28,565 nucleotides of DNA. It comes from a virus. The notes under the pieces are model-generated. The model worked only from the letters and a program-made list of their open reading frames with translations, was not told where the DNA came from and did not search any database. This document shows, one piece after another, positions 1,507 through 28,507 of the stretch (position 1 is its first letter; each line of letters begins with the position of its first letter). The translations under genes and the position numbers were made by a program. The stretch lies in IMG/VR virus record IMGVR_UViG_3300044970_002001, positions 1 through 28,565 of that record; one strand, 5' to 3'.

Positions 1507-1538
1507 CAAAGATAATGTATTCAAATTTAATGTGCAAA
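1507..1538 (-). promoter_or_regulatory. Bacteroidota-type promoter, class YA
   Basis: Upstream box TTTGCACATTAAA, downstream box TTATCTTTG, 32 nt end to end. It drives the membrane protein ending at 1191; the leader is 16 nt. Confidence 0.8.
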
Positions 1539-1586
1539 TTTTTTACAAAAAAAATTAATGTATTCAAGCTAAACGGTCTTTTTTAA

Positions 1587-1594
1587 TATATTTG
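1587..1594 (+). promoter_or_regulatory. possible -7 box for the gene at 1630
   Basis: TATATTTG matches TAnnTTTG, 35 nt before the ATG, but there is no TTTG box at the usual distance upstream. It is weaker than the common promoter of this window. Confidence 0.4.
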
Positions 1595-1629
1595 TACTAT
1601 TTATTAGTATATAAAAAATTATTAAGAAA

Positions 1630-1884
1630 ATGAAGGACACTCTTATAAACCAGGTAGCGGATACCTTAACAAAAAGACCCGAGTACGGAATAGTTTCATC
1701 CATGTTATCAATATCAATGAGCGCAACAGATCTTTTACAGTTAGTGGGGGTTATCCTGGGTTTGTTCATCGCAATAATAACTGCGATCCTGAAGGTGATG
1801 GAATTAAGGGACAGGATACGTGAGAAAAAAGGATTGCCAGCAAGAAGAAGAAAAAAGAGTAGCTCCAGTGAGTCCGATGAGTAA
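1630..1884 (+). CDS. single-span membrane protein with a basic tail, possible holin
   Basis: 84 residues starting MKDTLINQVADTL. A hydrophobic helix covers roughly residues 36-58 (LLQLVGVILGLFIAIITAIL). It is followed by a strongly basic segment (residues 62-77, including ARRRKK) and a serine/acidic end (SSSSESDE). One helix plus a cationic C-terminus fits small phage holins, but it also fits other phage membrane peptides. A clear terminator follows at 1911. Confidence 0.75.
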   Translation: MKDTLINQVADTLTKRPEYGIVSSMLSISMSATDLLQLVGVILGLFIAIITAILKVMELRDRIREKKGLPARRRKKSSSSESDE

Positions 1885-1910
1885 TCGAATCTGAATACAT
1901 AAAAATACTG

Positions 1911-1947
1911 AAAGGTGAATTCTGGTAGAGTTCACCTTTTTTATTTT
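1911..1947 (+). terminator. rho-independent terminator after 1630-1884
   Basis: AAAGGTGAA (1911-1919) pairs with TTCACCTTT (1931-1939) and is followed by a T-rich run. It can also fold on the minus strand and may end the RNA started at 2168. Confidence 0.85.
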
Positions 1948-2168
1948 GTGATAAAGTTAATTATGAATTCTGAAAGATTCGTGAATATGAATTCTGAAAA
2001 AGACGCCAGTATGAATTCTAAAAATTCTGGCAATATGAATTCTGGGAATCTGAATACAAGTTGAAAATCGGAAACAGAACCTGGAGGACTTTTAGTATGA
2101 AATCAAAAACAAAACAGAGATTTGCCTCCAGGCCTGTAACCTTATAAACCAAAACAATTATACATTGT
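1943..2168 (-). ncRNA. candidate noncoding RNA containing four 24-nt repeats
   Basis: A full-strength minus promoter (2174-2205) fires into a stretch with only one minus-strand ATG (2165), which opens a seven-codon frame (MYNCFGL). The predicted transcript contains an 8-bp perfect inverted repeat (CCTGGAGG/CCTCCAGG, about 2081-2136) and four AGAATTCAT units spaced 24 nt apart. It then runs into the hairpin at 1911-1939. It could also be read through from the operon ending at 2234. The ends are inferred. Confidence 0.5.
1963..2058 (+). repeat. four 24-bp direct repeats with GAATTC cores
   Basis: ATGAATTCT recurs at 1963, 1987, 2011 and 2035, exactly 24 bp apart; the other 15 bases of each unit differ. 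Because 24 is a multiple of three, the plus strand also reads as a 33-codon frame (1963-2064) of MNS-led octapeptides. No promoter leads into that frame, so a DNA-level or RNA-level role is more likely. Confidence 0.75.
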
Positions 2169-2173
2169 TGATA

Positions 2174-2205
2174 CAAAGATAATGCTTCTTTTTTTAATAT
2201 GCAAG
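2174..2205 (-). promoter_or_regulatory. Bacteroidota-type promoter, class YA, no normal gene downstream
   Basis: CTTGCATATTAAA and TTATCTTTG boxes, 32 nt end to end, pointing left into the repeat region. It lies just downstream of the stop at 2234. Confidence 0.75.
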
Positions 2206-2233
2206 TTTTTCTTGCTTTTTTTTTATCTTTTTT

Positions 2234-2782
2234 TTAATCGGTTTGAATGAATGTAAATTCATCCAGATCATATATCCAGATCGCCAGTAGATTCTCGATG
2301 ATCACGTAATTGAATTCCCCAGCCCTGGCATCCATGGCATCGGTGAGCTGTTGTACCGTCTGATCATCGATTCCCCTCAGATTAAAAACAAATTTTTCTT
2401 GTCCCACCGTCAGAAGGTATTTTTCGATCAGCATCGCTTCCAGATCATCAACTTCATTATGGTGATTCGTTAGCATGTTTATGGTGTCCCTGGAAAGTTC
2501 CCAGTCCATGTAGATCACACACACTTCTTTTTTTATCACGTTATCCAGCTTACCCCTGAAGAGATCTGAGCTGGTCGCCCTTACATGGTCGATCGGGCCC
2601 AGAACTTCACCAATCTTGGGAAGCCCGTTAAAATTCTTTCTGCTGTCATCGAACGCGATCATTGCATCTTCCGCCTCTTCGTCCGTTATGTGATCACCTA
2701 GTAGTACTACTGTCAGTGAATCTTCGAACGGGGACATGAATTCGCTTACAACTTCGATCGCGCTGCTTTCTGATTCATTCAT
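2234..2782 (-). CDS. hypothetical acidic protein, 182 aa
   Basis: Begins MNESESSAIEVVSEFM. It is soluble, acidic and without a recognised domain; the aligned strands and helices suggest a compact alpha/beta fold. The start overlaps the stop of the upstream gene by one base (TAATG), so it is translationally coupled as the last gene of the operon from promoter 3804. The gene is very rich in GATC, unlike most of the window. Confidence 0.7.
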   Translation of the reverse strand: MNESESSAIEVVSEFMSPFEDSLTVVLLGDHITDEEAEDAMIAFDDSRKNFNGLPKIGEVLGPIDHVRATSSDLFRGKLDNVIKKEVCVIYMDWELSRDTINMLTNHHNEVDDLEAMLIEKYLLTVGQEKFVFNLRGIDDQTVQQLTDAMDARAGEFNYVIIENLLAIWIYDLDEFTFIQTD

Positions 2783-3147
2783 TAATTTACATTCTTAAAA
2801 TAACATTTATTACCTGTCATGATGATCGAGCTTGCATGCTTGATGGGCTCATCTGAATTCTTGATCCTGAATGAATCCATCTTATATGGGTTGTAGTAGA
2901 TCTCCTCACCATGGGCCTGAATCGATTCCGCGGCGAAGCTGTGACAGTATACAAATGCATGTACGTTCTTTTGCTTCGTCTCCAGAACCTTATTCCTTCC
3001 AGCCTGAGAGACTCTGAATTCTACATCATGAGCTACTAGATCCTTTACGTGTGAATGCAACCTGTAACCTTTTTTCTCCTGATTCCACTTCATCACACTG
3101 AAGCAATCCTTATGTAGGTTTCTGTATATTCTGAATTCTGGTCTCAT
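2782..3147 (-). CDS. conserved phage protein with KNVHA motif, 121 aa
   Basis: Begins MRPEFRIYRNLHKDCFSV and contains VEFRVSQAGRNKVLETKQKN then VHAFVYC. I recall small phage and plasmid proteins with this layout (R-N-L-H/N...FSV...VEFKV..GR.RV....KNVHA); their function is unknown. The start at 3147 is chosen because it makes an ATGA overlap with the upstream stop at 3144. It is the third gene of the 3799-2234 operon. Confidence 0.75.
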   Translation of the reverse strand: MRPEFRIYRNLHKDCFSVMKWNQEKKGYRLHSHVKDLVAHDVEFRVSQAGRNKVLETKQKNVHAFVYCHSFAAESIQAHGEEIYYNPYKMDSFRIKNSDEPIKHASSIIMTGNKCYFKNVN

Positions 3148-3467: not shown

Positions 3468-3472
3468 GGTAT

Positions 3473-3799: not shown

Positions 3800-3803
3800 A
3801 ACG

Positions 3804-3835
3804 CAAATATATATGAATTTAATTTAACTTGCAAA
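3804..3835 (-). promoter_or_regulatory. Bacteroidota-type promoter, class RG, leaderless
   Basis: TTTGCAAGTTAAA and TATATATTTG boxes, 32 nt end to end; ATG 4 nt downstream. It drives the operon 3799-2234. Confidence 0.8.
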
Positions 3836-3859
3836 TCTGAATGCAAAAAAAATAAGGGG

Positions 3860-4603
3860 TTAGTTACAACCCCTTACCACGAAACCTGTCGTGTCTTTCT
3901 TTGCGTCACCCTTTGCTTTCAATCCGACAATAACACCATTGCCATGTAAGAAAGTCAAATCGTGTTCGTCACCATTGATAACCTTTACACCTTTGTATTC
4001 AGCAGGTAATTCTGTTTCATCCTTAACAGCAAATACAGCGGCGACATTGAAGCCCAACATCAAAGCATTGTCAGCCCCTCTCTGGTTATCGATCGTTTCA
4101 GCACGTGAAAACGTAAGGTGATAATTCGCGGGAAGTTTTTTTGTCAACCTGGAAAAGATCTTTGTGTAATCGTAGAACTGAACATCAGGAAACATTTCCA
4201 TAATATTTTTAAAACCACCGACAGGTATGTTTTCATATGGGATATCAGAAGTACCATTTAAACGTACACACATTTTATCAGCGCCATGTTTCTTGACACC
4301 CTTTGCAATTTCTTTTACAACATCGTCCATGAAGTTAACCCTGTCACGTAGAAAGTATTCAGTCTTATTGAGACGACCTTTCATTACATTGCTAAACTTA
4401 CCACGCCCCGCTGTGAAGAGACATGAAGCGGAACAACCCGCTGTGGCTTTAGGGCAAATGTTTTTACCGAACGTGTTTTGTTTTTCTGGTGACATATATA
4501 GGATATAGGTAGTATACCCCAGTTTTTCACCTTTCTTTGTTTTCGCATTCTGCGTACCGAACAGTGTTGTCGGTTTCTTGTAAGTGTAACCTAAATTGAA
4601 CAT
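3860..4603 (-). CDS. GP88-like phage protein, 247 aa
   Basis: Begins MFNLGYTYKKPTTLFGTQNAK. It has the hallmarks I know from the phage 'gene product 88' family: a Cys-rich core near residues 46-62 (NICPKATAGCSASCLFTAGR), a following NKTEYFLRDR, then VRLNGTSDIPYE and VQFYDYTK. The role is unknown, and a radical-enzyme-like use of the cysteines has not been shown. The longer frame translates the promoter itself (ICTLNLFHLPLYS), so the ATG at 4603 is used. It is transcribed divergently from the YubB-like gene. Confidence 0.85.
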   Translation of the reverse strand: MFNLGYTYKKPTTLFGTQNAKTKKGEKLGYTTYILYMSPEKQNTFGKNICPKATAGCSASCLFTAGRGKFSNVMKGRLNKTEYFLRDRVNFMDDVVKEIAKGVKKHGADKMCVRLNGTSDIPYENIPVGGFKNIMEMFPDVQFYDYTKIFSRLTKKLPANYHLTFSRAETIDNQRGADNALMLGFNVAAVFAVKDETELPAEYKGVKVINGDEHDLTFLHGNGVIVGLKAKGDAKKDTTGFVVRGCN

Positions 4604-4630: not shown

Positions 4631-4662
4631 CAAAGGTAAGTGAAATAAATTTAATGTGCAAA
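4631..4662 (-). promoter_or_regulatory. Bacteroidota-type promoter, class YA
   Basis: TTTGCACATTAAA and TTACCTTTG boxes, 32 nt. It drives the GP88-like gene with a 27-nt leader. Confidence 0.85.
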
Positions 4663-4693: not shown

Positions 4694-4725
4694 TTTGCAA
4701 GTTAAAAAACTCCTTAATATATTTG
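4694..4725 (+). promoter_or_regulatory. Bacteroidota-type promoter, class RG
   Basis: TTTGCAAGTTAAA and TATATTTG boxes, 32 nt; leader 25 nt to the YubB-like gene. It is back to back with the promoter at 4631, with 31 nt between them. Confidence 0.8.
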
Positions 4726-4750: not shown

Positions 4751-5593
4751 ATGCCGAACTGGTGCGAAAATCGTTTAATGGTATCTGGTGATACCAAAGA
4801 ACTCAAAAGATTTCTGGCAATGGGAATTGCCGAAGAACCTGTGCGTTACAGCAAAACAGGTGAAAAAGAATTGGTCTGGAGAATGTCCAGATACTTACCA
4901 ACCCCAGAAGAACTTTCCAGGTCTGTGTCACCACCTGGTGATCGTGAGTGGATGAATGAATGGGAGGTGAACCACGCAAAGAGGCGTGTTGAGGAACAGC
5001 CAACCAAAATCGCTGAACTGGAAAAGGAACTGGAAACAACAACTGGTGAAGAAAGAATGCTTGTGTTGTCCCAACTGGAAGAAGCCAGAAAACCAATTGA
5101 GATACCAGAACTGGTTGAATGCTCAAATGGTACAGAAGAGAAACGCAAGGCGTTGAAAGAAAAGTATGGTTATGATAACTGGTACGACTGGTGTCACGCC
5201 AACTGGGGAACTAAATGGGATTGTTCATCAGAAGAACTGGGTTACCAGACAGATAACGAAAGTTATTTTGAAACCCACTTCAACTCCGCCTGGTCACCAC
5301 CAATCGGTTGGTTGAGTAATGTAATAAAGTTATTCCCAACCTTGAACTTCAAACTGGTGTATATGGAAACTGGTAACTGGTTTGCGGGTTGTGCTTATAG
5401 TGATGAGGGTGAACTTTATCTGGCAGAGGGTGAACCTGAATACCAGTATGATGGCGTTACCTACAAATATAACAGCGACAGCGAAAGTTATGTTGGTGAG
5501 GATGGTAATGTGATGACATCAGATGAATGGGAAGAGGTTGCTCAATCATATCCGTACAATCCGTTTGATGACTTTGATGCTCCCTGGGAATAA
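4751..5593 (+). CDS. YubB / Api92-like (DUF1281) protein, 280 aa
   Basis: Begins MPNWCENRLMVSGD, the signature opening of the YubB ferredoxin-like / Api92-like family found on plasmids and phages. A second hallmark, YDWCHANWGTKWD, lies near residues 138-150. AWSPPIGWLSNVIKLFP and a FAGCAYSD-type segment follow. Residues about 75-120 form an acidic coiled insertion, and the tail is acidic. The molecular function is not established in the family. A hairpin follows at 5608. Confidence 0.9.
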   Translation: MPNWCENRLMVSGDTKELKRFLAMGIAEEPVRYSKTGEKELVWRMSRYLPTPEELSRSVSPPGDREWMNEWEVNHAKRRVEEQPTKIAELEKELETTTGEERMLVLSQLEEARKPIEIPELVECSNGTEEKRKALKEKYGYDNWYDWCHANWGTKWDCSSEELGYQTDNESYFETHFNSAWSPPIGWLSNVIKLFPTLNFKLVYMETGNWFAGCAYSDEGELYLAEGEPEYQYDGVTYKYNSDSESYVGEDGNVMTSDEWEEVAQSYPYNPFDDFDAPWE

Positions 5594-5640: not shown

Positions 5641-5672
5641 TTTGCATATTAAAAATAATAAACTTATATTTG
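5641..5672 (+). promoter_or_regulatory. Bacteroidota-type promoter, class YA, leaderless
   Basis: TTTGCATATTAAA and TTATATTTG boxes, 32 nt; ATG 4 nt downstream (TTTGTGCTATG). Confidence 0.8.
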
Positions 5673-7575: not shown

Positions 7576-7607
7576 CAAAGATAAGTGAATTAAATTTAAT
7601 GTGCAAA
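7576..7607 (-). promoter_or_regulatory. Bacteroidota-type promoter, class YA
   Basis: TTTGCACATTAAA and TTATCTTTG boxes, 32 nt; leader 16 nt to the gene ending at 6984. Confidence 0.85.
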
Positions 7608-7674: not shown

Positions 7675-8487
7675 TTAGTTAGCAAACTCCTCAGCAAGTG
7701 TCCACAGCCCTTTGTTGATTAACACATTCATACGAATGTTGCTGATAGGTCGAGCAGAACGTGGTTTATCACCCTCACCTTGATGTTGGAAGCCACCCTT
7801 GATGAGTTTCTCCTGTACTCGGTTGTAAACTCTCCACAAGTCAGGCCCATTGTCCTCAGGACGGACTGCTTTAAGGATTTCATCAATCGCAACATTCTTG
7901 TTGAGTTTCTTAACATCAAGTTTGTTGTTCTTAGGATTGATGTACTCGGGGAAGCGGATTGCAAACGCTTTCATCGCGAACTCGGTTTGTGCTTCCTCAC
8001 TCATAATGACACCCTCGAAGCGGTTGATTGTGTTGAAGACAACAGGTAAGTTCTCGGTGATGTTTGTAATCAACCCTTTCACCTCACCAAAGGTTGTACC
8101 CATATGGCGAATACGAAACTTGTTAAAGGTTTCATCAGCAACCACAAGACCATTTGAACAGATGATACGGAAGATACCAACGTGGAAGTTCAATGAAGTG
8201 GTGCGGTCGTGAGAGTTCACCAACAGGACTTCAGGCACATTACCTTTCACACCAAGTGAACCAAACTCATCGTGGCGGAAGCGAAGCATATGCTTTGTGG
8301 TTTCGGGGTTCTTCTTGGATTTTTGTTGCATTGCTGAATGAACATTCCAACCCATTCCACCCAAACCATCAATGATTTCGGCTGTGGTCATAAACTGGTA
8401 GTGCTTTGATACATTACCCTCAGCACCTTGTTCAGGCATACGGAAAGCCGCAGGTGCAAGTTCTTTGATTTTTTCGATGTCGTACAT
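7675..8487 (-). CDS. DUF932-family phage/plasmid-like protein, 270 aa
   Basis: Begins MYDIEKIKELAPAAFRM. Recognisable blocks of the DUF932 (phage/plasmid-like TIGR03299-type) family are YQFMTTAEIIDGL, the segment HMLRFRH, VLLVNSHDRTTSLNFHVGIF, then RIICSNGLV. The family is common on mobile elements and its biochemical role is unknown. The longer frame starts inside the promoter at a TTG; the ATG at 8487 follows a normal 21-nt leader. It is single, with its own promoter and terminator. Confidence 0.85.
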   Translation of the reverse strand: MYDIEKIKELAPAAFRMPEQGAEGNVSKHYQFMTTAEIIDGLGGMGWNVHSAMQQKSKKNPETTKHMLRFRHDEFGSLGVKGNVPEVLLVNSHDRTTSLNFHVGIFRIICSNGLVVADETFNKFRIRHMGTTFGEVKGLITNITENLPVVFNTINRFEGVIMSEEAQTEFAMKAFAIRFPEYINPKNNKLDVKKLNKNVAIDEILKAVRPEDNGPDLWRVYNRVQEKLIKGGFQHQGEGDKPRSARPISNIRMNVLINKGLWTLAEEFAN

Positions 8488-8508: not shown

Positions 8509-8540
8509 CAAAGATAAGTGAAATAAATTTAATGTGCAAA
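8509..8540 (-). promoter_or_regulatory. Bacteroidota-type promoter, class YA
   Basis: TTTGCACATTAAA and TTATCTTTG boxes, 32 nt; leader 21 nt to the DUF932-like gene. Confidence 0.85.
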
Positions 8541-9241: not shown

Positions 9242-9273
9242 CAAAGATAAGTGTAATTTATTTAACTCGCAAA
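9242..9273 (-). promoter_or_regulatory. Bacteroidota-type promoter, class RG
   Basis: TTTGCGAGTTAAA and TTATCTTTG boxes, 32 nt; leader 21 nt. It begins two bases after the stop of the preceding gene. Confidence 0.85.
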
Positions 9274-9875: not shown

Positions 9876-9907
9876 CAAAGATAAGTGGAATTTTTTTAAT
9901 ACGCAAA
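9876..9907 (-). promoter_or_regulatory. Bacteroidota-type promoter, class YA
   Basis: TTTGCGTATTAAA and TTATCTTTG boxes, 32 nt; leader 21 nt. Confidence 0.8.
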
Positions 9908-10590: not shown

Positions 10591-10622
10591 CAAAGATAAG
10601 TATAATTTTTTTAATCTGCAAG
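10591..10622 (-). promoter_or_regulatory. Bacteroidota-type promoter inside the end of the upstream gene
   Basis: CTTGCAGATTAAA and TTATCTTTG boxes, 32 nt; leader 20 nt. The upstream box encodes the last residues KLAD and the stop of 10611-10865. It is the only site breaking the RG/YA rule (it has GA), plausibly because of the coding constraint. Confidence 0.8.
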
Positions 10623-10886: not shown

Positions 10887-10918
10887 CAAAGATAAGTGGA
10901 ATATATTTAATGTGCAAA
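10887..10918 (-). promoter_or_regulatory. Bacteroidota-type promoter, class YA
   Basis: TTTGCACATTAAA and TTATCTTTG boxes, 32 nt; leader 21 nt. It follows the stop of the 35-aa gene by two bases. Confidence 0.85.
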
Positions 10919-11754: not shown

Positions 11755-11786
11755 CAAATATAAGTGAATTAAATTTAACCTGCAAA
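11755..11786 (-). promoter_or_regulatory. Bacteroidota-type promoter, class RG
   Basis: TTTGCAGGTTAAA and TTATATTTG boxes, 32 nt; leader 20 nt. Two bases after the preceding stop. Confidence 0.85.
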
Positions 11787-12151: not shown

Positions 12152-12183
12152 CAAAGATAAATGAATTTAATTTAACCTGCAAG
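12152..12183 (-). promoter_or_regulatory. Bacteroidota-type promoter, class RG
   Basis: CTTGCAGGTTAAA and TTATCTTTG boxes, 32 nt; leader 18 nt. Confidence 0.85.
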
Positions 12184-12211: not shown

Positions 12212-12243
12212 CTTGACTTTTATCTACTTGTTTACTATTATTG
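12212..12243 (+). promoter_or_regulatory. degenerate Bacteroidota-type promoter, leaderless
   Basis: CTTG at 12212-12215 and TATTATTG at 12236-12243 keep the 32-nt geometry but lack the extended upstream block. The lipoprotein ATG is 5 nt downstream. Confidence 0.5.
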
Positions 12244-12248
12244 TGAAC

Positions 12249-12422
12249 ATGAAGAGAATTCTTATGACACTTGCCATTTTTGGAGTAATCCTAACCATGG
12301 CATCTTGCGGATCGGGCACATCTACCGAATCAACAGCAACTGACTCAACAGTTGTTGTTACCGATACCACAGGCGTAGACACTACGAATGTTACCACTAC
12401 AACAACGGATTCGGTACAATAA
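12249..12422 (+). CDS. very small predicted lipoprotein, 57 aa
   Basis: Begins MKRILMTLAIFGVILTMASC: basic start, hydrophobic core and a lipobox (MASC) with the cysteine at residue 20. The mature part is a low-complexity Ser/Thr/Asp/Val tail (STESTATDSTVV and so on), like extracellular linkers. It is the only plus-strand gene between 6.2 and 15.3 kb. The ATG at 12249 is preferred over the longer frame because it gives a proper signal peptide. A surface decoy or exclusion role is only a guess. Confidence 0.7.
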   Translation: MKRILMTLAIFGVILTMASCGSGTSTESTATDSTVVVTDTTGVDTTNVTTTTTDSVQ

Positions 12423-12426
12423 AAAA

Positions 12427-12457
12427 GATTGGGGAAGAGAAATCTTCCCCTTTCTTT
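12427..12457. terminator. bidirectional terminator between convergent genes
   Basis: GGGGAAGA-GAAA-TCTTCCCC hairpin (12431-12450) with A run before and T run after; serves both the lipoprotein gene and 12458-12745. Confidence 0.9.
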
Positions 12458-12745
12458 TTATATGCAGGGCAACCACTCGCTTGGTTTACTCATAGTTCCT
12501 TTTGCATCACGAAAGCCCTCCACAACATCTTTGGATATTTTGTGGCTTGCTTCATTTCTTCCATCAAAACGATAATCCTCGTTCGCACAGTTCTCAAGCC
12601 AGGCCAAGCATAACTTGGTGAATGATTGTTGAAGTGTACGATGTTCCCTGTTCATTTCCTGAATGAATTCCTGTTCCTTACTGGAAAAACTGTTCAGGTA
12701 ATCGGTTACGGTTTCTACCGTTTCTTTTGCTGTCGCTTTGCTCAT
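12458..12745 (-). CDS. hypothetical helical protein, 95 aa
   Basis: Begins MSKATAKETVETVTDYLNSF. Mostly helical (SSKEQEFIQEMNREHRTLQQ), then FTKLCLAWLENCANEDYRFD and a C-terminal SEWLPCI. I recall similar small proteins in Bacteroidota phages (WLE-CA---YR-DGRNE) but no function. Leader 21 nt from promoter 12767. Confidence 0.75.
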   Translation of the reverse strand: MSKATAKETVETVTDYLNSFSSKEQEFIQEMNREHRTLQQSFTKLCLAWLENCANEDYRFDGRNEASHKISKDVVEGFRDAKGTMSKPSEWLPCI

Positions 12746-12766
12746 TGCTGTTTTGATTTATTGATA

Positions 12767-12798
12767 CAAATATAAGTGAAATATTTTTAACCTGCAAA
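12767..12798 (-). promoter_or_regulatory. Bacteroidota-type promoter, class RG
   Basis: TTTGCAGGTTAAA and TTATATTTG boxes, 32 nt; leader 21 nt. Two bases after the preceding stop. Confidence 0.85.
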
Positions 12799-12800
12799 TT

Positions 12801-13106
12801 TTATTTCAGTAATTTATTAATAAATTTTTTATTACCGAATGTAACTGATTTCCAACCACCTCTAACACCAAACTCTTCATTTGTTACCTCACCGTATTTT
12901 GTGATTGCTTCATCCCTTGTTAATACTTTCTCGATCACCATCCAATTACCATCAATGTATTGAACATTGTGCTTTTGTCGAACAGCAGTAAATTCTTCCT
13001 CACCCAGTCTTTTAACAATATACCTACCCCACATGATAGGTTCACCACACCAACCATCCTTGATGATGCTTTGTTTTTCGCTTACAAATTCTCTTAATTG
13101 ATCCAT
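12801..13106 (-). CDS. hypothetical protein, 101 aa
   Basis: Begins MDQLREFVSEKQSIIKDGWC. Mixed alpha/beta, ending with the basic segment SVTFGNKKFINKLLK. Not recognised. Second gene of a two-gene operon, 6 nt after 13113-13325. These two genes contain several GATC sites, unlike their neighbours. Confidence 0.7.
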   Translation of the reverse strand: MDQLREFVSEKQSIIKDGWCGEPIMWGRYIVKRLGEEEFTAVRQKHNVQYIDGNWMVIEKVLTRDEAITKYGEVTNEEFGVRGGWKSVTFGNKKFINKLLK

Positions 13107-13345: not shown

Positions 13346-13377
13346 CAAATATAAATGAAATAAATTTAACCTGCAAA
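13346..13377 (-). promoter_or_regulatory. Bacteroidota-type promoter, class RG
   Basis: TTTGCAGGTTAAA and TTATATTTG boxes, 32 nt; leader 20 nt to a GTG start. Confidence 0.85.
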
Positions 13378-14435: not shown

Positions 14436-14467
14436 CAAATGTAAGTGAATTATTTTTAACTCGCAAA
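14436..14467 (-). promoter_or_regulatory. Bacteroidota-type promoter, class RG
   Basis: TTTGCGAGTTAAA and TTACATTTG boxes, 32 nt; leader 19 nt. Drives four genes (14416-13445). Confidence 0.85.
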
Positions 14468-14884: not shown

Positions 14885-14916
14885 CAAAGGTAACTTATAT
14901 TTTTTTAACCTGCAAA
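14885..14916 (-). promoter_or_regulatory. Bacteroidota-type promoter, class RG
   Basis: TTTGCAGGTTAAA and TTACCTTTG boxes, 32 nt; leader 23 nt. Three bases after the preceding stop. Confidence 0.8.
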
Positions 14917-15243: not shown

Positions 15244-15275
15244 CAAAGATATGTGCAATATTTTTAACCCACAAA
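15244..15275 (-). promoter_or_regulatory. Bacteroidota-type promoter, class RG
   Basis: TTTGTGGGTTAAA and CATATCTTTG boxes, 32 nt; leader 27 nt. Left half of the divergent pair. Confidence 0.75.
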
Positions 15276-15315: not shown

Positions 15316-15347
15316 TTTGTGAGTTAAATTTATTGTGTTTATATTTG
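15316..15347 (+). promoter_or_regulatory. Bacteroidota-type promoter, class RG
   Basis: TTTGTGAGTTAAA and TTATATTTG boxes, 32 nt; leader 21 nt to the SprT-like gene. Right half of the divergent pair, 40 bases of almost pure A/T from its partner. Confidence 0.8.
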
Positions 15348-15368: not shown

Positions 15369-15839
15369 ATGGACTTAAACAAAGCACAAGCACTCGCAAA
15401 CGAACTCATGCAAAAGCATGGCATCAAGCAACATGGTTGGATTTTCCGTTTTGACAACGCAAGACGCAGGTTTGGTTGTTGCAAATATCGGTCAAGGACA
15501 ATCACATTATCAAAATACCTAACGCACTTAAACGATGAAAAAGAAGTTAGAAATACCATATTACACGAAATCGCACACGCCCTTACACCTGGACACCACC
15601 ACGATTGGGTATGGAAAGCCAAAGCAAGAGAGATTGGTTGTTCGGGGGATAGATGTTATAGCGGTAAAAGTGTTACAACACCCGAAAGCCGTTATATTGC
15701 AGTTTGTTCGGGTTGTGGTCATACACATAAGAAACATAGAGCAACACGCACAATATCTTCTTGTGGTTTTTGTTCGGGTGGTCGCTATAACCCTACATAC
15801 AAATTGGAGTTCAAATTAAACCCAAAAATTTTGCAATAA
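15369..15839 (+). CDS. SprT-like zinc metalloprotease, 156 aa
   Basis: Begins MDLNKAQALANELMQKHGIK. The HEIAHALTPGHHHDWVW block near residues 66-82 carries the HExxH zinc site with a further His downstream, as in the SprT / Spartan family. Two CxxC pairs (CSGCG near 117 and CGFC near 134) form a C-terminal zinc ribbon typical of SprT. Spartan relatives cleave DNA-protein crosslinks; a phage copy could protect its DNA or degrade a host protein (inference). ATG chosen after the promoter; the longer frame translates the promoter. Confidence 0.9.
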   Translation: MDLNKAQALANELMQKHGIKQHGWIFRFDNARRRFGCCKYRSRTITLSKYLTHLNDEKEVRNTILHEIAHALTPGHHHDWVWKAKAREIGCSGDRCYSGKSVTTPESRYIAVCSGCGHTHKKHRATRTISSCGFCSGGRYNPTYKLEFKLNPKILQ

Positions 15840-15841: not shown

Positions 15842-15873
15842 TTTGCAAGTTAAATTTATTTCACTTACCTTTG
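15842..15873 (+). promoter_or_regulatory. Bacteroidota-type promoter, class RG
   Basis: TTTGCAAGTTAAA and TTACCTTTG boxes, 32 nt; leader 22 nt. Two bases after the SprT-like stop. Confidence 0.85.
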
Positions 15874-16588: not shown

Positions 16589-16620
16589 TTTGCAAGTTAA
16601 ATTTATTTCACTTACCTTTG
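16589..16620 (+). promoter_or_regulatory. Bacteroidota-type promoter, class RG
   Basis: TTTGCAAGTTAAA and TTACCTTTG boxes, 32 nt; leader 21 nt. Two bases after the preceding stop. Confidence 0.85.
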
Positions 16621-17353: not shown

Positions 17354-17385
17354 TTTGCGAGTTAAAAAAATTGCATATACATTTG
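17354..17385 (+). promoter_or_regulatory. Bacteroidota-type promoter, class RG
   Basis: TTTGCGAGTTAAA and ATACATTTG boxes, 32 nt; leader 30 nt to the ParB/Srx-like gene. Confidence 0.8.
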
Positions 17386-17415: not shown

Positions 17416-18225
17416 ATGGCAAAACAAAAGACAAGGAACTTCGCGTTCAAAACCTTATTAAAAGGTTCAGTAGAAACAGATGTTAATGGTAATGTTATCT
17501 GTTACCCCGACATCGTTGAAACAAGTAACTATGAGTTACTTAAATTACTCAAATTCAATCGTGACATCGCACCTGCACACGTTCAGAAAATGGGTACGAG
17601 TGTTACTCAGTTGGCTAACGTACTTCGTGACGTTGTTATCGTTAAAATTGGTATGCACTATTTTATCGTTGATGGTCAACATTTGTATGCTTACCTTAAA
17701 TCAGCAAATCTACCTATCCGTTGCAAATTGATTGAAGCAAGGGATGAAAAGGAAGCGTTGAAGATTGTTACAATGTTAAACAGCACTTCACGAAACTGGG
17801 GTATCAAAAACTTCGTTGATGGTTGGGCGAACTTTAACAAAGACGTGAAAATCCTAAAAGACCTTACAAAGCGTTTTTCACTTACCTACACAACCATTGG
17901 TGCTTTACTTACCAATTCAACAAGCGCACTTGCAAAGAAACAAATCGCAAATGGCGAATTCAAGGTTGTTGATATGGAAGAAGCGATTAAGCGTATCAAT
18001 GCGATTGATTTCTTCTACAACGCAACAGGGTTTGTTCGTAGTCAGTATGCAACAACAGGGTTGATTGACTTTATGGGTAACTTGGGTGTTGAGAAATACT
18101 ACAAAAATCAAGATAAGTTTATTACTTGTATTAAGCGTGGTATGAAGAAACGCAACTTCAATGGGAAAACCTATGGAAGAAAAGAAGATTACTTGGAGTT
18201 CTTCAATGCTTGTTGGAACAACTAA
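17416..18225 (+). CDS. ParB/Srx-like domain protein, 269 aa
   Basis: Begins MAKQKTRNFAFKTLLKG. Residues about 35-105 resemble the ParB N-terminal / sulfiredoxin-like fold: FNRDIAPAHVQKMGTSVTQL, the DVVIVKIGMHYFIVDGQHLY block with the DGQH motif, and a following IRCKLIEARDEKEALKIVTM with L-N-S-T-SRNW. The DGQH motif resembles the D-G-x-H/R nucleotide-binding loop of the family. The C-terminal half is helical without a clear ParB helix-turn-helix, so partition is unlikely; a DNA-processing or regulatory role is more plausible. Confidence 0.75.
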   Translation: MAKQKTRNFAFKTLLKGSVETDVNGNVICYPDIVETSNYELLKLLKFNRDIAPAHVQKMGTSVTQLANVLRDVVIVKIGMHYFIVDGQHLYAYLKSANLPIRCKLIEARDEKEALKIVTMLNSTSRNWGIKNFVDGWANFNKDVKILKDLTKRFSLTYTTIGALLTNSTSALAKKQIANGEFKVVDMEEAIKRINAIDFFYNATGFVRSQYATTGLIDFMGNLGVEKYYKNQDKFITCIKRGMKKRNFNGKTYGRKEDYLEFFNACWNN

Positions 18226-18280: not shown

Positions 18281-18312
18281 CTTGCAAGTTAAATTTATTG
18301 TATTTATATTTG
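18281..18312 (+). promoter_or_regulatory. Bacteroidota-type promoter, class RG
   Basis: CTTGCAAGTTAAA and TTATATTTG boxes, 32 nt; leader 16 nt. Starts ten bases after the terminator. Confidence 0.85.
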
Positions 18313-18652: not shown

Positions 18653-18684
18653 TTTGCACATTAAATTTATTTCGTTTATCTTTG
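18653..18684 (+). promoter_or_regulatory. Bacteroidota-type promoter, class YA
   Basis: TTTGCACATTAAA and TTATCTTTG boxes, 32 nt; leader 20 nt. Confidence 0.85.
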
Positions 18685-18955: not shown

Positions 18956-18987
18956 TTTGCAGGTTAAATTTATTTCACTTACCTTTG
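18956..18987 (+). promoter_or_regulatory. Bacteroidota-type promoter, class RG
   Basis: TTTGCAGGTTAAA and TTACCTTTG boxes, 32 nt; leader 25 nt. Two bases after the preceding stop. Confidence 0.85.
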
Positions 18988-19700: not shown

Positions 19701-19732
19701 CTTGCACATTAAAATAATTATACTTATCTTTG
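19701..19732 (+). promoter_or_regulatory. Bacteroidota-type promoter, class YA
   Basis: CTTGCACATTAAA and TTATCTTTG boxes, 32 nt; leader 20 nt. Confidence 0.85.
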
Positions 19733-20079: not shown

Positions 20080-20111
20080 TTTGCACATTAAATTTATTTC
20101 ATTTACCTTTG
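20080..20111 (+). promoter_or_regulatory. Bacteroidota-type promoter, class YA
   Basis: TTTGCACATTAAA and TTACCTTTG boxes, 32 nt; leader 22 nt. Confidence 0.85.
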
Positions 20112-20133: not shown

Positions 20134-20553
20134 ATGGCAAATCCTTTAATTCATTCAAAATCCAGCGTTAAGCGTTGGGGTGGTAATGTGGAAGATTACT
20201 TGGCAATCCACGAACTTATTGATAGTCCCAAAGCGACTATGAACAACAATTCAGCAAGGGTATTAACACATAACACTTGGTTTGCTTACACGATTATTCC
20301 AAAGATATTCGGTTACAACATTACCAATTCAAGTGGTAAAAGTGTGGACACGATTGATATTGCTATGTTGCATATCTTGGAAGATTTCCGTATGAAGTTT
20401 GTACCAACGGCACAAGATTACTTGAAACATTTTAATTTGCCCGATTGGGTACACAACGGAGTGAAAATGATTGACAACCCCGATAGTGTTGAAATTGCAG
20501 ACCTTTTCTTGGAAAAATTAAGAAAAGAATGTGAAGAAAAGTTTGCAAGTTAA
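20134..20553 (+). CDS. DUF6915-like protein, 139 aa
   Basis: Begins MANPLIHSKSSVKRWGGNVE then DYLAIHELIDSPKA. This opening (M-A-x-P-L-x-H-x-x-S-S-x-x-x-x-G-G-x-x-x-D-Y-L-x-I-H) matches proteins I know as DUF6915 in bacteria and phages. Later blocks are WFAYTIIPKIFGYNI and LPDWVHNGVKMID. No function is established. Its last residues KFAS and stop are encoded by the next promoter's upstream box. Confidence 0.8.
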   Translation: MANPLIHSKSSVKRWGGNVEDYLAIHELIDSPKATMNNNSARVLTHNTWFAYTIIPKIFGYNITNSSGKSVDTIDIAMLHILEDFRMKFVPTAQDYLKHFNLPDWVHNGVKMIDNPDSVEIADLFLEKLRKECEEKFAS

Positions 20554-20573
20554 ATTTATTTCATTTATCTTTG
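20542..20573 (+). promoter_or_regulatory. Bacteroidota-type promoter inside the end of the upstream gene
   Basis: TTTGCAAGTTAAA (class RG) and TTATCTTTG boxes, 32 nt; leader 22 nt. Its first 12 bases are the last codons and stop of 20134-20553. Confidence 0.85.
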
Positions 20574-21289: not shown

Positions 21290-21321
21290 TTTGCACATTA
21301 AATTTATTATACTTACCTTTG
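21290..21321 (+). promoter_or_regulatory. Bacteroidota-type promoter, class YA
   Basis: TTTGCACATTAAA and TTACCTTTG boxes, 32 nt; leader 22 nt. Confidence 0.85.
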
Positions 21322-21593: not shown

Positions 21594-21625
21594 TTTGCAC
21601 ATTAAATTTATTTCACTTATGTTTG
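21594..21625 (+). promoter_or_regulatory. Bacteroidota-type promoter, class YA
   Basis: TTTGCACATTAAA and TTATGTTTG boxes, 32 nt; leader 19 nt. One base after the preceding stop. Confidence 0.8.
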
Positions 21626-22044: not shown

Positions 22045-22076
22045 TTTGCGAGTTAAAAAAATTATACATACATTTG
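22045..22076 (+). promoter_or_regulatory. Bacteroidota-type promoter, class RG, leaderless
   Basis: TTTGCGAGTTAAA and TACATACATTTG boxes, 32 nt; ATG 4 nt downstream (TTTGCCCTATG). Begins immediately after the preceding stop codon. Confidence 0.8.
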
Positions 22077-22420: not shown

Positions 22421-22452
22421 TTTGCGAGTTAAATTTATTTCACTTACATTTG
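22421..22452 (+). promoter_or_regulatory. Bacteroidota-type promoter, class RG
   Basis: TTTGCGAGTTAAA and TTACATTTG boxes, 32 nt; leader 24 nt. Confidence 0.85.
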
Positions 22453-23011: not shown

Positions 23012-23123
23012 ACAAAAAGGGGAGCAATCCCCTTTTTTTTATTTAACATAATACGAGAGTAAAGGGCAGGTTCCCTTAGAACACCCCAGCCACCTTTTGA
23101 GTGCCCGCCCTTCCTTAATTGGA
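23012..23123 (-). ncRNA. candidate structured noncoding RNA, about 110 nt, antisense to the gene run
   Basis: A full-geometry minus promoter (23129-23160) points into this stretch, which ends at a bidirectional terminator (23019-23032). The interior is clearly more GC-rich than its surroundings, and its one ATG-led minus-strand frame is short and reads out through the terminator. It can form an outer stem AAGGGCGGG/CCTGCCCTT (one wobble), an inner CACTC/GGGTG hairpin and a GTTC...GAAC hairpin, a three-way-junction shape. I do not recognise it as a known RNA family. Confidence 0.65.
23014..23042. terminator. bidirectional terminator
   Basis: GGGGA-GCAA-TCCCC hairpin (23019-23032) with A run before and T run after. 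It ends 22477-22995 on the plus strand and the candidate RNA on the minus strand. Confidence 0.9.
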
Positions 23124-23128
23124 CAATA

Positions 23129-23160
23129 CAAAGGTAAATGTATTTTTTTTAATGTGCAAA
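23129..23160 (-). promoter_or_regulatory. Bacteroidota-type promoter, class YA, for the candidate RNA
   Basis: TTTGCACATTAAA and TTACCTTTG boxes, 32 nt. It is the only minus promoter in the 15.3-28.6 kb plus-strand run. Confidence 0.85.
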
Positions 23161-23201: not shown

Positions 23202-23233
23202 TTTGCAAGTTAAATTTATTCCACTTATATTTG
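23202..23233 (+). promoter_or_regulatory. Bacteroidota-type promoter, class RG
   Basis: TTTGCAAGTTAAA and TTATATTTG boxes, 32 nt; leader 21 nt. Divergent from 23129. Confidence 0.85.
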
Positions 23234-23646: not shown

Positions 23647-23678
23647 TTTGCGAGTTAAATTTATTTCCCTTATCTTTG
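23647..23678 (+). promoter_or_regulatory. Bacteroidota-type promoter, class RG
   Basis: TTTGCGAGTTAAA and TTATCTTTG boxes, 32 nt; leader 21 nt. Confidence 0.85.
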
Positions 23679-23699: not shown

Positions 23700-23978
23700 A
23701 TGAACGCATTTACATTAGCACACGAAATTAAACAACTATTGGTTGAAATGGCAGTGAACGATGAGTTGCCGTTGGATATGACCCAGTTGAACACCGAGAA
23801 GATTGAGGAGTTGATAATGAGCAACACCCAAACCAATCACGGAATACCGACCGAGGTTAATGTTGGGGTTTATTACTACATTGATGATGAAACCGACAAG
23901 CCTGTTTTTGACTTTGAGGAAATGACAACCGAGTTTAATTTAATGTTAAACGAATTGGAAAATAAATTTGCGAGTTAA
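23700..23978 (+). CDS. acidic protein ending KFAS, 92 aa
   Basis: Begins MNAFTLAHEIKQLLVEMAVN. A helix is followed by LPLDMTQLNTEKIEELIMSN and VGVYYYIDDETDKPVFDFEE. Not recognised. The final KFAS and stop are the upstream box of the promoter at 23967. Start corrected; the longer frame translates the promoter. Confidence 0.75.
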   Translation: MNAFTLAHEIKQLLVEMAVNDELPLDMTQLNTEKIEELIMSNTQTNHGIPTEVNVGVYYYIDDETDKPVFDFEEMTTEFNLMLNELENKFAS

Positions 23979-23998
23979 AAAAAATACGCTTATATTTG
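23967..23998 (+). promoter_or_regulatory. Bacteroidota-type promoter inside the end of the upstream gene
   Basis: TTTGCGAGTTAAA (class RG) and TTATATTTG boxes, 32 nt; leader 21 nt. First 12 bases are coding for 23700-23978. Confidence 0.85.
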
Positions 23999-24296: not shown

Positions 24297-24328
24297 TTTG
24301 CAAGTTAAATTTATTTCACTTATCTTTG
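24297..24328 (+). promoter_or_regulatory. Bacteroidota-type promoter, class RG
   Basis: TTTGCAAGTTAAA and TTATCTTTG boxes, 32 nt; leader 22 nt. Confidence 0.85.
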
Positions 24329-24633: not shown

Positions 24634-24665
24634 TTTGCACATTAAATTTATTTCACTTATCTTTG
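24634..24665 (+). promoter_or_regulatory. Bacteroidota-type promoter, class YA
   Basis: TTTGCACATTAAA and TTATCTTTG boxes, 32 nt; leader 22 nt. Confidence 0.85.
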
Positions 24666-25070: not shown

Positions 25071-25102
25071 TTTGCAGGTTAAATTTATTTCGTTTATATT
25101 TG
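25071..25102 (+). promoter_or_regulatory. Bacteroidota-type promoter, class RG
   Basis: TTTGCAGGTTAAA and TTATATTTG boxes, 32 nt; leader 22 nt. Confidence 0.85.
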
Positions 25103-25556: not shown

Positions 25557-25564
25557 GTTTGTAT

Positions 25565-25580
25565 ATTTTCGATCGAAAAT
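25565..25580. promoter_or_regulatory. 16-bp perfect palindrome abutting a promoter
   Basis: ATTTTCGATCGAAAAT reads the same on both strands and ends on the first T of the promoter's TTTG box. It contains one of the few GATC sites in this half of the window. An operator for a dimeric regulator is plausible. Confidence 0.5.
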
Positions 25581-25611
25581 TTGCACATTAAATTTATTTC
25601 ATTTATCTTTG
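25580..25611 (+). promoter_or_regulatory. Bacteroidota-type promoter, class YA
   Basis: TTTGCACATTAAA and TTATCTTTG boxes, 32 nt; leader 16 nt. Confidence 0.85.
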
Positions 25612-25627
25612 ACATAACAAAAAACAA

Positions 25628-25948: not shown

Positions 25949-25976
25949 CAATTTATGAAATAAACCTTGTTGAAAA

Positions 25977-26008
25977 CTTGTGGGTTAAATTTATTATACT
26001 TACCTTTG
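25977..26008 (+). promoter_or_regulatory. Bacteroidota-type promoter, class RG
   Basis: CTTGTGGGTTAAA and TTACCTTTG boxes, 32 nt; leader 28 nt. Confidence 0.8.
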
Positions 26009-26036
26009 CACTCACAAATAAGATACTACTAAAAAA

Positions 26037-26240: not shown

Positions 26241-26242
26241 AA

Positions 26243-26274
26243 TTTGCAAGTTAAATTTATTTCACTTATCTTTG
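26243..26274 (+). promoter_or_regulatory. Bacteroidota-type promoter, class RG
   Basis: TTTGCAAGTTAAA and TTATCTTTG boxes, 32 nt; leader 22 nt. Two bases after the preceding stop. Confidence 0.85.
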
Positions 26275-26296
26275 TATTAACAAAACAAAACAAGAT

Positions 26297-26674: not shown

Positions 26675-26676
26675 AA

Positions 26677-26708
26677 TTTGCACATTAAATTTATTTCGTT
26701 TATCTTTG
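26677..26708 (+). promoter_or_regulatory. Bacteroidota-type promoter, class YA
   Basis: TTTGCACATTAAA and TTATCTTTG boxes, 32 nt; leader 21 nt. Two bases after the preceding stop. Confidence 0.85.
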
Positions 26709-26729
26709 TATCAACAAATCAAACAAACA

Positions 26730-26933
26730 ATGGCAAAGAAAAAATTTGATGTAATCAGTCCCGATGGATTCAGCATTCATTTCAGCGACACTTACAAGAC
26801 AAAAGAACAAGCGGTTGAAGCCCTTGAAAATTGGGTAAAACGCTACGAATTTCAAGGTTATTATTCTTCGGTAAACTACGGAAGAATACCTTTGGAAGAA
26901 CTACCAAACTATTGTGAAATCGTTGAGGTATAA
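26730..26933 (+). CDS. conserved small phage/plasmid protein, 67 aa
   Basis: Begins MAKKKFDVISPDGFSIHFSD, then EQAVEALENWVKRYEFQGYY and GRIPLEELPNYCEIVEV. This layout (FDV-SPDGF-I-----Y-T-EEA---L--W--R---QGYYS...GRI-L-EL---C) is common in small proteins of Bacteroidota mobile elements. Function unknown. Start corrected to lie after the promoter. Confidence 0.8.
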   Translation: MAKKKFDVISPDGFSIHFSDTYKTKEQAVEALENWVKRYEFQGYYSSVNYGRIPLEELPNYCEIVEV

Positions 26934-26936
26934 ACT

Positions 26937-27047
26937 ATGGAAGCACTAATTAAAACAATAGCGGTATTATCAATCTATGCGTTAATCTATTTGTCGGTAC
27001 TGGCATACAACAAATGGTGGTATGAAAACAAATGGAGGGATGAATAA
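26937..27047 (+). CDS. very small membrane protein, 36 aa
   Basis: MEALIKTIAVLSIYALIYLS and then VLAYNKWWYENKWRDE: one hydrophobic helix (about residues 4-23) and a Trp-rich charged tail. It starts 3 nt after the stop of 26730-26933 and so shares that transcript. Its stop lies one base before the next promoter. Not recognised. Confidence 0.7.
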   Translation: MEALIKTIAVLSIYALIYLSVLAYNKWWYENKWRDE

Positions 27048-27048
27048 A

Positions 27049-27080
27049 TTTGCGAGTTAAATTTATTTCATTTATCTTTG
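27049..27080 (+). promoter_or_regulatory. Bacteroidota-type promoter, class RG, leaderless
   Basis: TTTGCGAGTTAAA and TTATCTTTG boxes, 32 nt; ATG 4 nt downstream (TTTGAACTATG). Confidence 0.85.
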
Positions 27081-27084
27081 AACT

Positions 27085-27228
27085 ATGAAACAAAACGAAA
27101 CAGATTGGAAACAAGGTTTATCCGAAAGGCACATCGCTCAAATCATTCGCAGAAATATGATAACAAGGAGCAAACCTTCGGGCAAGGTTTATGACCGAAA
27201 AAAAGTTGCAAAAAAGTTTGCACATTAA
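27085..27228 (+). CDS. very small basic protein ending KFAH, 47 aa, leaderless
   Basis: Begins MKQNETDWKQGLSERHIAQI and ends VYDRKKVAKKFAH. Basic, with a helix (ERHIAQIIRRNMI) then TRSKPSGKVYDRKK. It could bind nucleic acid or the ribosome; not recognised. Its last four codons and stop are the upstream box of the next promoter, and its ATG is 4 nt from the TTTG box of its own promoter. Confidence 0.7.
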   Translation: MKQNETDWKQGLSERHIAQIIRRNMITRSKPSGKVYDRKKVAKKFAH

Positions 27229-27248
27229 ATTTATTTCGTTTATCTTTG
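27217..27248 (+). promoter_or_regulatory. leaderless promoter inside the end of the upstream gene
   Basis: TTTGCACATTAAA (class YA) and TTATCTTTG boxes, 32 nt; first 12 bases code for FAH and stop of 27085-27228. ATG 4 nt downstream (TTTGAACTATG). Confidence 0.85.
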
Positions 27249-27252
27249 AACT

Positions 27253-27399
27253 ATGAAAATAAACATATATAGAATTAAAAAGGCTTGGATCTGTTACACC
27301 AGTGGTCGCGAGAATGGTCGCAACATTTATTGGTCAATCCGTTTGGCTTTATATTGGTTCAGTAGTGGGTTTAATTTTGAGGGAGATAAGGTATGTTAA
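27253..27399 (+). CDS. very small aromatic protein, 48 aa, leaderless
   Basis: MKINIYRIKKAWICYTSGRE opens it; SIRLALYWFSSGFNFEGD follows. Rich in Trp and Tyr with a hydrophobic middle, possibly a membrane-associated peptide. Not recognised. The ATG is 4 nt from the promoter. Confidence 0.65.
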   Translation: MKINIYRIKKAWICYTSGRENGRNIYWSIRLALYWFSSGFNFEGDKVC

Positions 27400-27421
27400 T
27401 TGGTAAAAAAATGAAATAAAA

Positions 27422-27453
27422 TTTGCAAGTTAAATTTATTTCATTTATCTTTG
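27422..27453 (+). promoter_or_regulatory. Bacteroidota-type promoter, class RG
   Basis: TTTGCAAGTTAAA and TTATCTTTG boxes, 32 nt; leader 21 nt. Confidence 0.85.
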
Positions 27454-27474
27454 TATCAACAAAAAAAACAAACA

Positions 27475-27705
27475 ATGCCAACAACAGACTATTTTTATGT
27501 TTCAAGCAAAGACAATTCGGTTAGAAGGACAACCGAACCAACAAGGGAGTATTTCATTCCCAACGGAAAGAAAGAGGGTAATGCGAAGTATATCATTGAG
27601 GTATTTGGGTACAATCACCACGAAACCGCAAAAAAGGTTAGAGATATGGTAGATAAGGCTGGAATGTCTGACGAATTATTTACCATTAAAGTAGAAACAA
27701 GATGA
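27475..27705 (+). CDS. hypothetical protein, 76 aa
   Basis: Begins MPTTDYFYVSSKDNSVRRTT. A beta start, then YIIEVFGYNHHETAKKVRDM and a final strand (ELFTIKVETR): a compact beta-alpha-beta fold. Not recognised. Start corrected to lie after the promoter. Confidence 0.75.
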   Translation: MPTTDYFYVSSKDNSVRRTTEPTREYFIPNGKKEGNAKYIIEVFGYNHHETAKKVRDMVDKAGMSDELFTIKVETR

Positions 27706-27712
27706 AATAAAA

Positions 27713-27744
27713 TTTGCAAGTTAAATTTATTTCGTTTATCTTTG
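27713..27744 (+). promoter_or_regulatory. Bacteroidota-type promoter, class RG
   Basis: TTTGCAAGTTAAA and TTATCTTTG boxes, 32 nt; leader 17 nt. Confidence 0.85.
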
Positions 27745-27761
27745 CATTAACAAAATAAACA

Positions 27762-27971
27762 ATGAACGAGGTAGAACAATTAAAGCACCGACTTGCAATG
27801 GTTGAAGATGACCTAAGGGTTATAAGAGCATTCATTTATCGGGAAGAGTTGAATGAAACATTCCAAAAGCCAACGGAAATGGCTGACGAGTGTTGGACAC
27901 ATTTGAACAACATTGAAATTGCTTGCGACCTTACAAGTGATGAATCATTAACTTGGACAAAGTTTTCTTAA
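27762..27971 (+). CDS. coiled-coil-like small protein, 69 aa
   Basis: Begins MNEVEQLKHRLAMVEDDLRV. An acidic coiled-coil helix in the first half, then FQKPTEMADECWTHLNNIEI. Not recognised. Three bases separate its stop from the next start, so the two form an operon. Confidence 0.7.
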   Translation: MNEVEQLKHRLAMVEDDLRVIRAFIYREELNETFQKPTEMADECWTHLNNIEIACDLTSDESLTWTKFS

Positions 27972-27974
27972 CAT

Positions 27975-28172
27975 ATGGCGAACTATCATGTAACAATCAT
28001 GTCGATTGACCCTAACGACCATTATGGTAGAGAACAAGGGGACGACCACCAAAAGTACGGGTTGAGTGTTCAAGCGAACAATCAACGGGACGCAGAAGAA
28101 AAGGGGGTTGCTAAATTCAAACAAGAACATCCAAATTTGCCTATCTTTTGGGTAAAAGTTTTTGAAGAATAA
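27975..28172 (+). CDS. hypothetical protein, 65 aa
   Basis: Begins MANYHVTIMSIDPNDHYGRE. Contains HQKYGLSVQANNQRDAEEKG and a C-terminal PIFWVKVFEE: strand, helix, strand. Not recognised. Second gene of the operon from promoter 27713. Confidence 0.75.
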   Translation: MANYHVTIMSIDPNDHYGREQGDDHQKYGLSVQANNQRDAEEKGVAKFKQEHPNLPIFWVKVFEE

Positions 28173-28204
28173 TTTGCACATTAAATTTATTTCGTTTATC
28201 TTTG
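28173..28204 (+). promoter_or_regulatory. Bacteroidota-type promoter, class YA
   Basis: TTTGCACATTAAA and TTATCTTTG boxes, 32 nt; leader 21 nt. Begins immediately after the preceding stop. Confidence 0.85.
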
Positions 28205-28225
28205 CATCAACAAATCAAACGAACA

Positions 28226-28453
28226 ATGGCAAAGTTTACATTACAATCAAATCAGTACATTCCGTACAGAGCAAAGAAATCACCAAGCGGTTTACCACTT
28301 GCTGAAACTTATTATTATTTTACCAACGAACAAGGTAAGGTAATTGACAAAAAGACCTTAAAGCCGTACAGAGGTAAGCAAATGGACAGGTATGCGATGA
28401 AGTCCAAAACAGAAGCAGAAGCATATTTGGAAGTTATCAACAAAGGGGAGTAA
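28226..28453 (+). CDS. small basic protein, 75 aa
   Basis: Begins MAKFTLQSNQYIPYRAKKSP. Contains LAETYYYFTNEQGKVIDKKT, then a basic stretch (KPYRGKQMDRYAMKSKTEAE). Not recognised. Its stop codon lies in the loop of the terminator hairpin. Confidence 0.75.
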   Translation: MAKFTLQSNQYIPYRAKKSPSGLPLAETYYYFTNEQGKVIDKKTLKPYRGKQMDRYAMKSKTEAEAYLEVINKGE

Positions 28454-28466
28454 TCCCCTTTTTTTT
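28445..28466 (+). terminator. terminator overlapping the stop of 28226-28453
   Basis: GGGGA-GTAA-TCCCC hairpin (28445-28458) and eight T; the TAA stop is in the GNRA loop. Confidence 0.9.
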
Positions 28467-28475
28467 ACAATAAAA

Positions 28476-28507
28476 TTTGCATATTAAATTTATTTTATTT
28501 ATCTTTG
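28476..28507 (+). promoter_or_regulatory. Bacteroidota-type promoter, class YA
   Basis: TTTGCATATTAAA and TTATCTTTG boxes, 32 nt; leader 21 nt to the gene cut by the window edge. Confidence 0.85.

Follow-up and report, generated by a model that had tools for sequence, protein, structure and literature searches.

Probable Bacteroidota counterparts of T4 early promoters in a fragment of an uncultured jumbo phage

The early promoters of phage T4 are described as excellent matches to the host elements with 'additional regions of consensus', and in the middle promoters of the same phage a MotA box at -30 replaces the -35 box (PMC2988021). RpoD-like sigma factors occur in the group-2 jumbo phages (PMC7824862). 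In the Bacteroidota, promoters of the primary sigma factor (sigma-ABfr or sigma-A) combine a TTTG box at -33 and a TAnnTTTG box at -7 with an AT-rich spacer (PMC7366714; PMC9723704), and in Bacteroides thetaiotaomicron the length of this spacer is variable (PMC7366714). Here we describe a promoter family in an IMG/VR virus record (IMGVR_UViG_3300044970_002001; 28,565 bp, 37% G+C), the whole of which we call the window. Its sites carry the Bacteroidota boxes, as a sequence-only reading of the window had recognised. At a probability of roughly two in three, we consider them to be super-consensus early promoters for the host primary sigma factor and hence the Bacteroidota counterpart of the T4 early promoters.

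The pattern [TC]TTG-N20-TAnnTTTG occurs 50 times in the window, 32 times on the plus strand and 18 times on the minus strand, and every match is exactly 32 nt long; nearly all genes of the window have such a site in front of them. Markov shuffles gave a mean of 0.23 matches (maximum 2) to this pattern, against the 50 observed, and 0.26 matches to TTTGYRNNTTAAA. When total lengths of 27-37 nt were scanned, the plus strand yielded 32-nt sites only, while on the minus strand 18 of 25 sites were of 32 nt and the seven others were scattered over 28-37 nt at chance level. Of the 40 intergenic TAnnTTTG boxes in the window, 36 have an upstream box at exactly 32 nt (open reading frames, ORFs, were called mechanically). 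The promoter family is real: the sequence-only reading had claimed 51 sites of invariant length between 1507 and 28507, and the pattern, the distance and the span are confirmed, but the 33rd plus-strand site was not found and the position weight matrix scan that it proposed turned up no degenerate extra site.

Counting positions within a site from 0 at the first T of the upstream box, this box is TTTG in 44 sites and CTTG in six, the -7 box TAnnTTTG is present in all 50 by construction of the pattern, and [CT]-R-N-R-TTAAA occupies positions 4-12 in 50/50 sites. The extended block that had been claimed for 50 sites is thus present in every site found, and conservation proves even wider than had been described, with extra consensus beyond the host boxes. 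The consensus is an A-tract followed by TTTG-C-R-N-R-TTAAA-(TTT/AAA)-ATTTCACTTA-T-C/A-TTTG-TATCA, and the site logo runs from an A-tract through TTTGC, R, N, R, TTAAA, TTT or AAA, ATT, C (position 20) and TTA to the -7 box and TATCA. Identity between sites reaches background about 30 nt upstream and about 70 nt downstream of the first T. Viewed as sigma70-family hexamers, TTG-C-A-N and TAnnTT lie 17 nt apart. A spacer of 17 bp is the optimum of the sigma70 family, and because the fixed 32-nt length corresponds to this optimum it needs no extra factor.

Beyond the earlier observation, the block contains a paired-base rule. Positions 6 and 7 (about -30/-29, just before TTAAA) read AG, GG, CA or TA in 141 of 143 distinct sites from the window and its relatives, not all of which are independent since many are orthologs. 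The two positions share 0.88 bits of mutual information, the maximum in shuffles being 0.058, and position 7 is linked to any position other than 6 by at most about 0.1 bits. The window alone has 29 RG, 20 YA, one RA and no YG (Fisher p 4e-13). Among ortholog promoter pairs, 35 with the relative G006 (about 95% identical) and 39 with the relative G001 (about 76%), position 7 changed 15 times, in 15/15 cases jointly with position 6, and position 6 changed alone seven times. Lone changes at position 7 would be plain transitions, which are common at positions 5, 6, 22 and 26, yet none was seen, and this points to selection acting against RA and YG intermediates. The rule holds in 58 of 64 upstream sites of other viruses and is weaker, at 52 of 64, in viral loci that have no detectable protein in common with this group. 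The coupled pair suggests specific recognition of this part of the block, and the rule is compatible alike with a host polymerase acting on very strong promoters and with a lineage-specific reader. A second local coupling is seen in the window and its relatives at positions 13-15, where TTT or AAA/AAT follows TTAAA, with 0.66 bits between positions 13 and 14.

Scans of viral contigs recovered relatives in which these sites occur by the dozen, among them records of 298,833 (G001), 76,691, 70,830 and 41,275 bp; relatives are about 76-80% identical to the window over about 25 kb. In G001 the family is confined to one region, at about 186-222 kb, where its sites cluster before small genes of unknown function: 60 of the 90 32-nt sites lie in this cluster, and the TTAAA block is present in 57 of these 60 as opposed to 7 of the 30 outside. 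Another motif, TATTTATA ([ACG]TATTTAT), stands apart from the cluster, being found in 39 of 106 upstream regions outside it and in 2 of 58 inside. The jumbo records G009 (242 kb) and G012 (340 kb) have 32-nt promoter clusters of their own with a different spacer sequence, as would be expected if the host sigma factor sets the spacing, and [ACG]TATTTAT is again distributed outside versus inside these clusters at 34/77 versus 2/46 (G009) and 44/163 versus 4/53 (G012). We read the cluster promoters and the TATTTATA motif as putative early and late classes.

Because the window holds no recognised sigma, polymerase or structural gene, the type of phage is taken from its relatives. G001 encodes a family B DNA polymerase, a T4-type terminase, a portal, a ribonucleotide reductase, an SbcC-like protein and, not adjoining the terminase, bS21, and it resembles the group of bS21-encoding phages of up to 331 kb whose predicted hosts are freshwater Bacteroidetes (PMC9723584). 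A jumbo phage with its own multisubunit RNA polymerase (RNAP) was rejected, as the beta' subunit (PF04998) gave no match over the cut-off in G001, G009 or G012, beta not having been searched. The family B polymerase, the lack of a beta' match in G001 and a host-like sigma factor in G001, G009 and G012 are shared with the group-2 jumbo phages, for which the accessible part of PMC7824862 describes no such early-promoter family. By its relatives, the window is judged to be an early-region fragment of a T4-like jumbo phage of Bacteroidota. No close cultured relative was found by DNA, and a search with the promoter consensus gave weak matches only.

The sigma factor of G001 (gene 12235-13032, minus strand) is full, with 265 aa, and matches the PHROG 'RNA polymerase sigma factor' at E 2e-56. 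By BLASTP it shares 40-42% identity with the five host primary-type sigmas nearest to it, and by tblastn, which covers a slightly different stretch, 44-46% with the best host sigmas. Region 4.2 reads LTKERVRQIKEKAIKKL versus LTRERVRQIKEKAIRRL in the host, the helix that reads the -33 box being near-identical, and the protein would presumably recognise the same boxes as the host sigma. Its gene lies outside the early cluster and adjoins the SbcC-like gene; homologues are present in G012 (41%) and, more diverged, in G009. A weak sigma-region-2 match is located near the G001 terminase, at 113,621-114,334, and with the TATTTATA motif it would make a T4 gp55-like late system possible.

As super-consensus early promoters, the sites would each consist of an A-tract, a full -33 TTTG, C-R-(RG or YA)-TTAAA, the optimum 17-bp spacer, a complete -7 TAnnTTTG and an invariant start region. 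Transcription from them by host RNA polymerase would begin once the phage DNA enters, each promoter would serve a single small gene for host takeover, in many cases with a G-rich hairpin at its end, and the rigid 32 nt would reflect the sigma70-family optimum (TTG[CAN] - 17 - TAnnTT). Such elaborate promoters probably let early virus genes outcompete the host's own. The T4 early promoters (PMC2988021) are likewise numerous host-sigma promoters with near-perfect host boxes, an upstream A/T element and extra conserved positions, situated among small genes of unknown function, and G001 is itself T4-like by terminase and family B polymerase. However, T4 uses sigma70 with -35/TGn/-10 elements rather than the -33/-7 boxes seen here, and the available part of PMC2988021 describes no coupled dinucleotide for T4. 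Several points weigh against this interpretation. Early timing, promoter strength and the host polymerase as reader are what we infer from the sequences, and the relative's own host-like sigma could read the same sites. The host promoters used for comparison come from other Bacteroidota than the phage's own host, and in them the RG/YA rule is not clearly shown (41/75, p 0.12; 31/75 sites are RA). Since the rule is near-absolute here and not evident in hosts, an account that relies on the host polymerase only must invoke stronger selection. Finally, the cultured T4-like Flavobacterium phage immuto, the nearest by terminase, has one 32-nt site in 160 kb, so the pattern is not a general solution.

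That the sites are ordinary host-type promoters, with a block that is general in an unsampled host lineage, is very improbable. Bacteroidota genomes do contain the exact extended pattern, for the most part in front of ORFs, but only as one match each in 4 of 396 genomes (one of the four being the centre genome, which was picked because of its match), compared with 50 in 28.6 kb here. Samples of 400 kb each from Bacteroides, Polaribacter and Kaistella show a weak upstream TTTG, whose placement varies over 30-33 nt, and no TTAAA block, whereas the phage sites have fixed spacing and a conserved part of about 13 nt plus the spacer. A block general to the hosts is rejected on these grounds, the view that the block far exceeds host promoters in extent is upheld, and G001's own other promoters mostly lack it as well. 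The sequence-only reading had also suggested the recent spread of a promoter cassette. This could have happened by duplication or as a mobile repeat, and conservation would then reflect shared descent and not selection. Some 32-mers are indeed present 2-4 times identically, and gene conversion from another copy could account for a few of the dinucleotide exchanges between orthologs. However, where 32-mers are identical, identity in their flanks is mostly close to background (18-40% versus 27%), no shared flanking sequence or target-site duplications were seen around promoter copies, and the drop of site identity to background beyond the promoter lends no support to the copying of a larger unit. 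Moreover, linkage is confined to neighbouring bases within the site, and 38 of 39 ortholog pairs have retained the geometry although overall identity is about 76%. The mobile cassette is thus rejected by the flank and linkage tests, and we give recent copying very little credence.

It is possible, if unlikely, that a phage-encoded protein reads C-R-(RG|YA)-TTAAA, be it a phage sigma-ABfr homologue or an activator that sits at -30 to -24 beside the host sigma; in that case the promoters would be of the middle type or early-maintained. Equally doubtful is the extension of this idea to a Bacteroidota-specific takeover system with two equivalent dinucleotide forms and intermediates that are selected against. 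In favour of such a reader are the full host-like sigma of G001, the precedent of the group-2 jumbo phages and the near-absolute RG/YA rule in this lineage, which is weaker or absent elsewhere. However, the sigma gene sits with a recombination gene outside the cluster, and its recognition helices are host-like and predict no new specificity. Other phages have the same geometry without the same block, and the window proteins scanned for domains include no recognisable DNA-binding regulator or transcription factor, a ParB-like match aside. The T4 middle promoters (PMC2988021) similarly combine a conserved element near -30 with an intact host -10-type box downstream of it, but here the -33 TTTG is not replaced but retained and strengthened; the domain scans made gave no MotA or AsiA match, no search having been aimed at either. 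The second DNA-binding factor proposed by the sequence-only reading is therefore not required, given the 17-bp spacer, the T4-like extra consensus and the same geometry in other jumbo phages, while the host-like phage sigma and the coupled pair speak for it. Recognition by the host primary sigma remains the explanation that we prefer.

In 46 of the 48 sites with a called gene, the -7 box is followed by the start codon at 4 or 16-30 nt. In five promoters (3835, 5641, 22045, 27049 and 27217) an ATG follows at exactly 4 nt. As TAnnTTTG maps to -12 to -5 in Flavobacterium psychrophilum (PMC9723704), these ATGs would fall on +1, and leaderless early messages are predicted. The promoters, each based on a match to the 32-nt pattern with any further basis given in its row, are listed with a candidate noncoding RNA.

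1507..1538, minus, promoter
2174..2205, minus, promoter, no clear ORF downstream
3804..3835, minus, promoter, ATG 4 nt after box, predicted leaderless
4631..4662, minus, promoter of GP88-family gene 3860-4603
4694..4725, plus, promoter of gene 4751-5593
5641..5672, plus, promoter, predicted leaderless
7576..7607, minus, promoter
8509..8540, minus, promoter of DUF932 gene 7675-8487
9242..9273, minus, promoter
9876..9907, minus, promoter
10591..10622, minus, promoter, sole window site violating the RG/YA rule (GA)
10887..10918, minus, promoter
11755..11786, minus, promoter
12152..12183, minus, promoter
12767..12798, minus, promoter
13346..13377, minus, promoter
14436..14467, minus, promoter
14885..14916, minus, promoter
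15244..15275, minus, promoter, divergent pair with 15316
15316..15347, plus, promoter of SprT-like gene 15369-15839
15842..15873, plus, promoter
16589..16620, plus, promoter
17354..17385, plus, promoter of ParB-like gene 17416-18225
18281..18312, plus, promoter
18653..18684, plus, promoter
18956..18987, plus, promoter, GG here versus CA in the G006 ortholog, otherwise identical
19701..19732, plus, promoter
20080..20111, plus, promoter of DUF6915 gene 20134-20553
20542..20573, plus, promoter
21290..21321, plus, promoter
21594..21625, plus, promoter
22045..22076, plus, promoter, predicted leaderless
22421..22452, plus, promoter
23014..23128, minus, candidate noncoding RNA, about 115 nt, terminator hairpin at end, nearly the same to the letter in relatives
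23129..23160, minus, promoter of candidate noncoding RNA
23202..23233, plus, promoter
23647..23678, plus, promoter
23967..23998, plus, promoter
24297..24328, plus, promoter
24634..24665, plus, promoter
25071..25102, plus, promoter
25580..25611, plus, promoter
25977..26008, plus, promoter
26243..26274, plus, promoter
26677..26708, plus, promoter
27049..27080, plus, promoter, predicted leaderless
27217..27248, plus, promoter, predicted leaderless
27422..27453, plus, promoter
27713..27744, plus, promoter
28173..28204, plus, promoter
28476..28507, plus, promoter

The promoter at 23129-23160 precedes no ORF but the stretch at 23014-23128, which ends in a terminator hairpin and is a candidate for a new phage small RNA. 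Three lineages that elsewhere are about 76-95% identical agree letter for letter over its first 80 nt or so, and it was seen in these relatives only; no Rfam family matched, and the stability of its fold is not unusual (z -1.0). Downstream of the promoter at 2174-2205 there is no ORF of at least 30 codons within 160 nt, and the stretch that follows is about 71% identical to a relative. Between 15000 and 28565 the window has 33 terminator-like hairpins versus 8.2 in shuffles (overlapping variants counted), often GGGG-loop-CCCC followed by a T-run and lying between single-gene units. At the left end, ARAGORN calls a tRNA-His at 194-282 and Rfam a tRNA of long span at 337-458, so that 194-458 possibly holds an interrupted or unusual tRNA.

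Some fifty natural variants of a very strong-looking Bacteroidota promoter, with orthologs at about 76% and 95% identity, provide a ready data set on what the unusual primary sigma factor of the Bacteroidota reads beyond TTTG/TAnnTTTG, as well as a promoter part list for Bacteroidota genetics. The strictly paired adjacent bases offer a case of promoter dinucleotide recognition that can be tested, and they make the reader of the block directly testable. More broadly, the family points to a division into early and late promoters in uncultured T4-like Bacteroidota jumbo phages that carry a copy of a host-type sigma factor.

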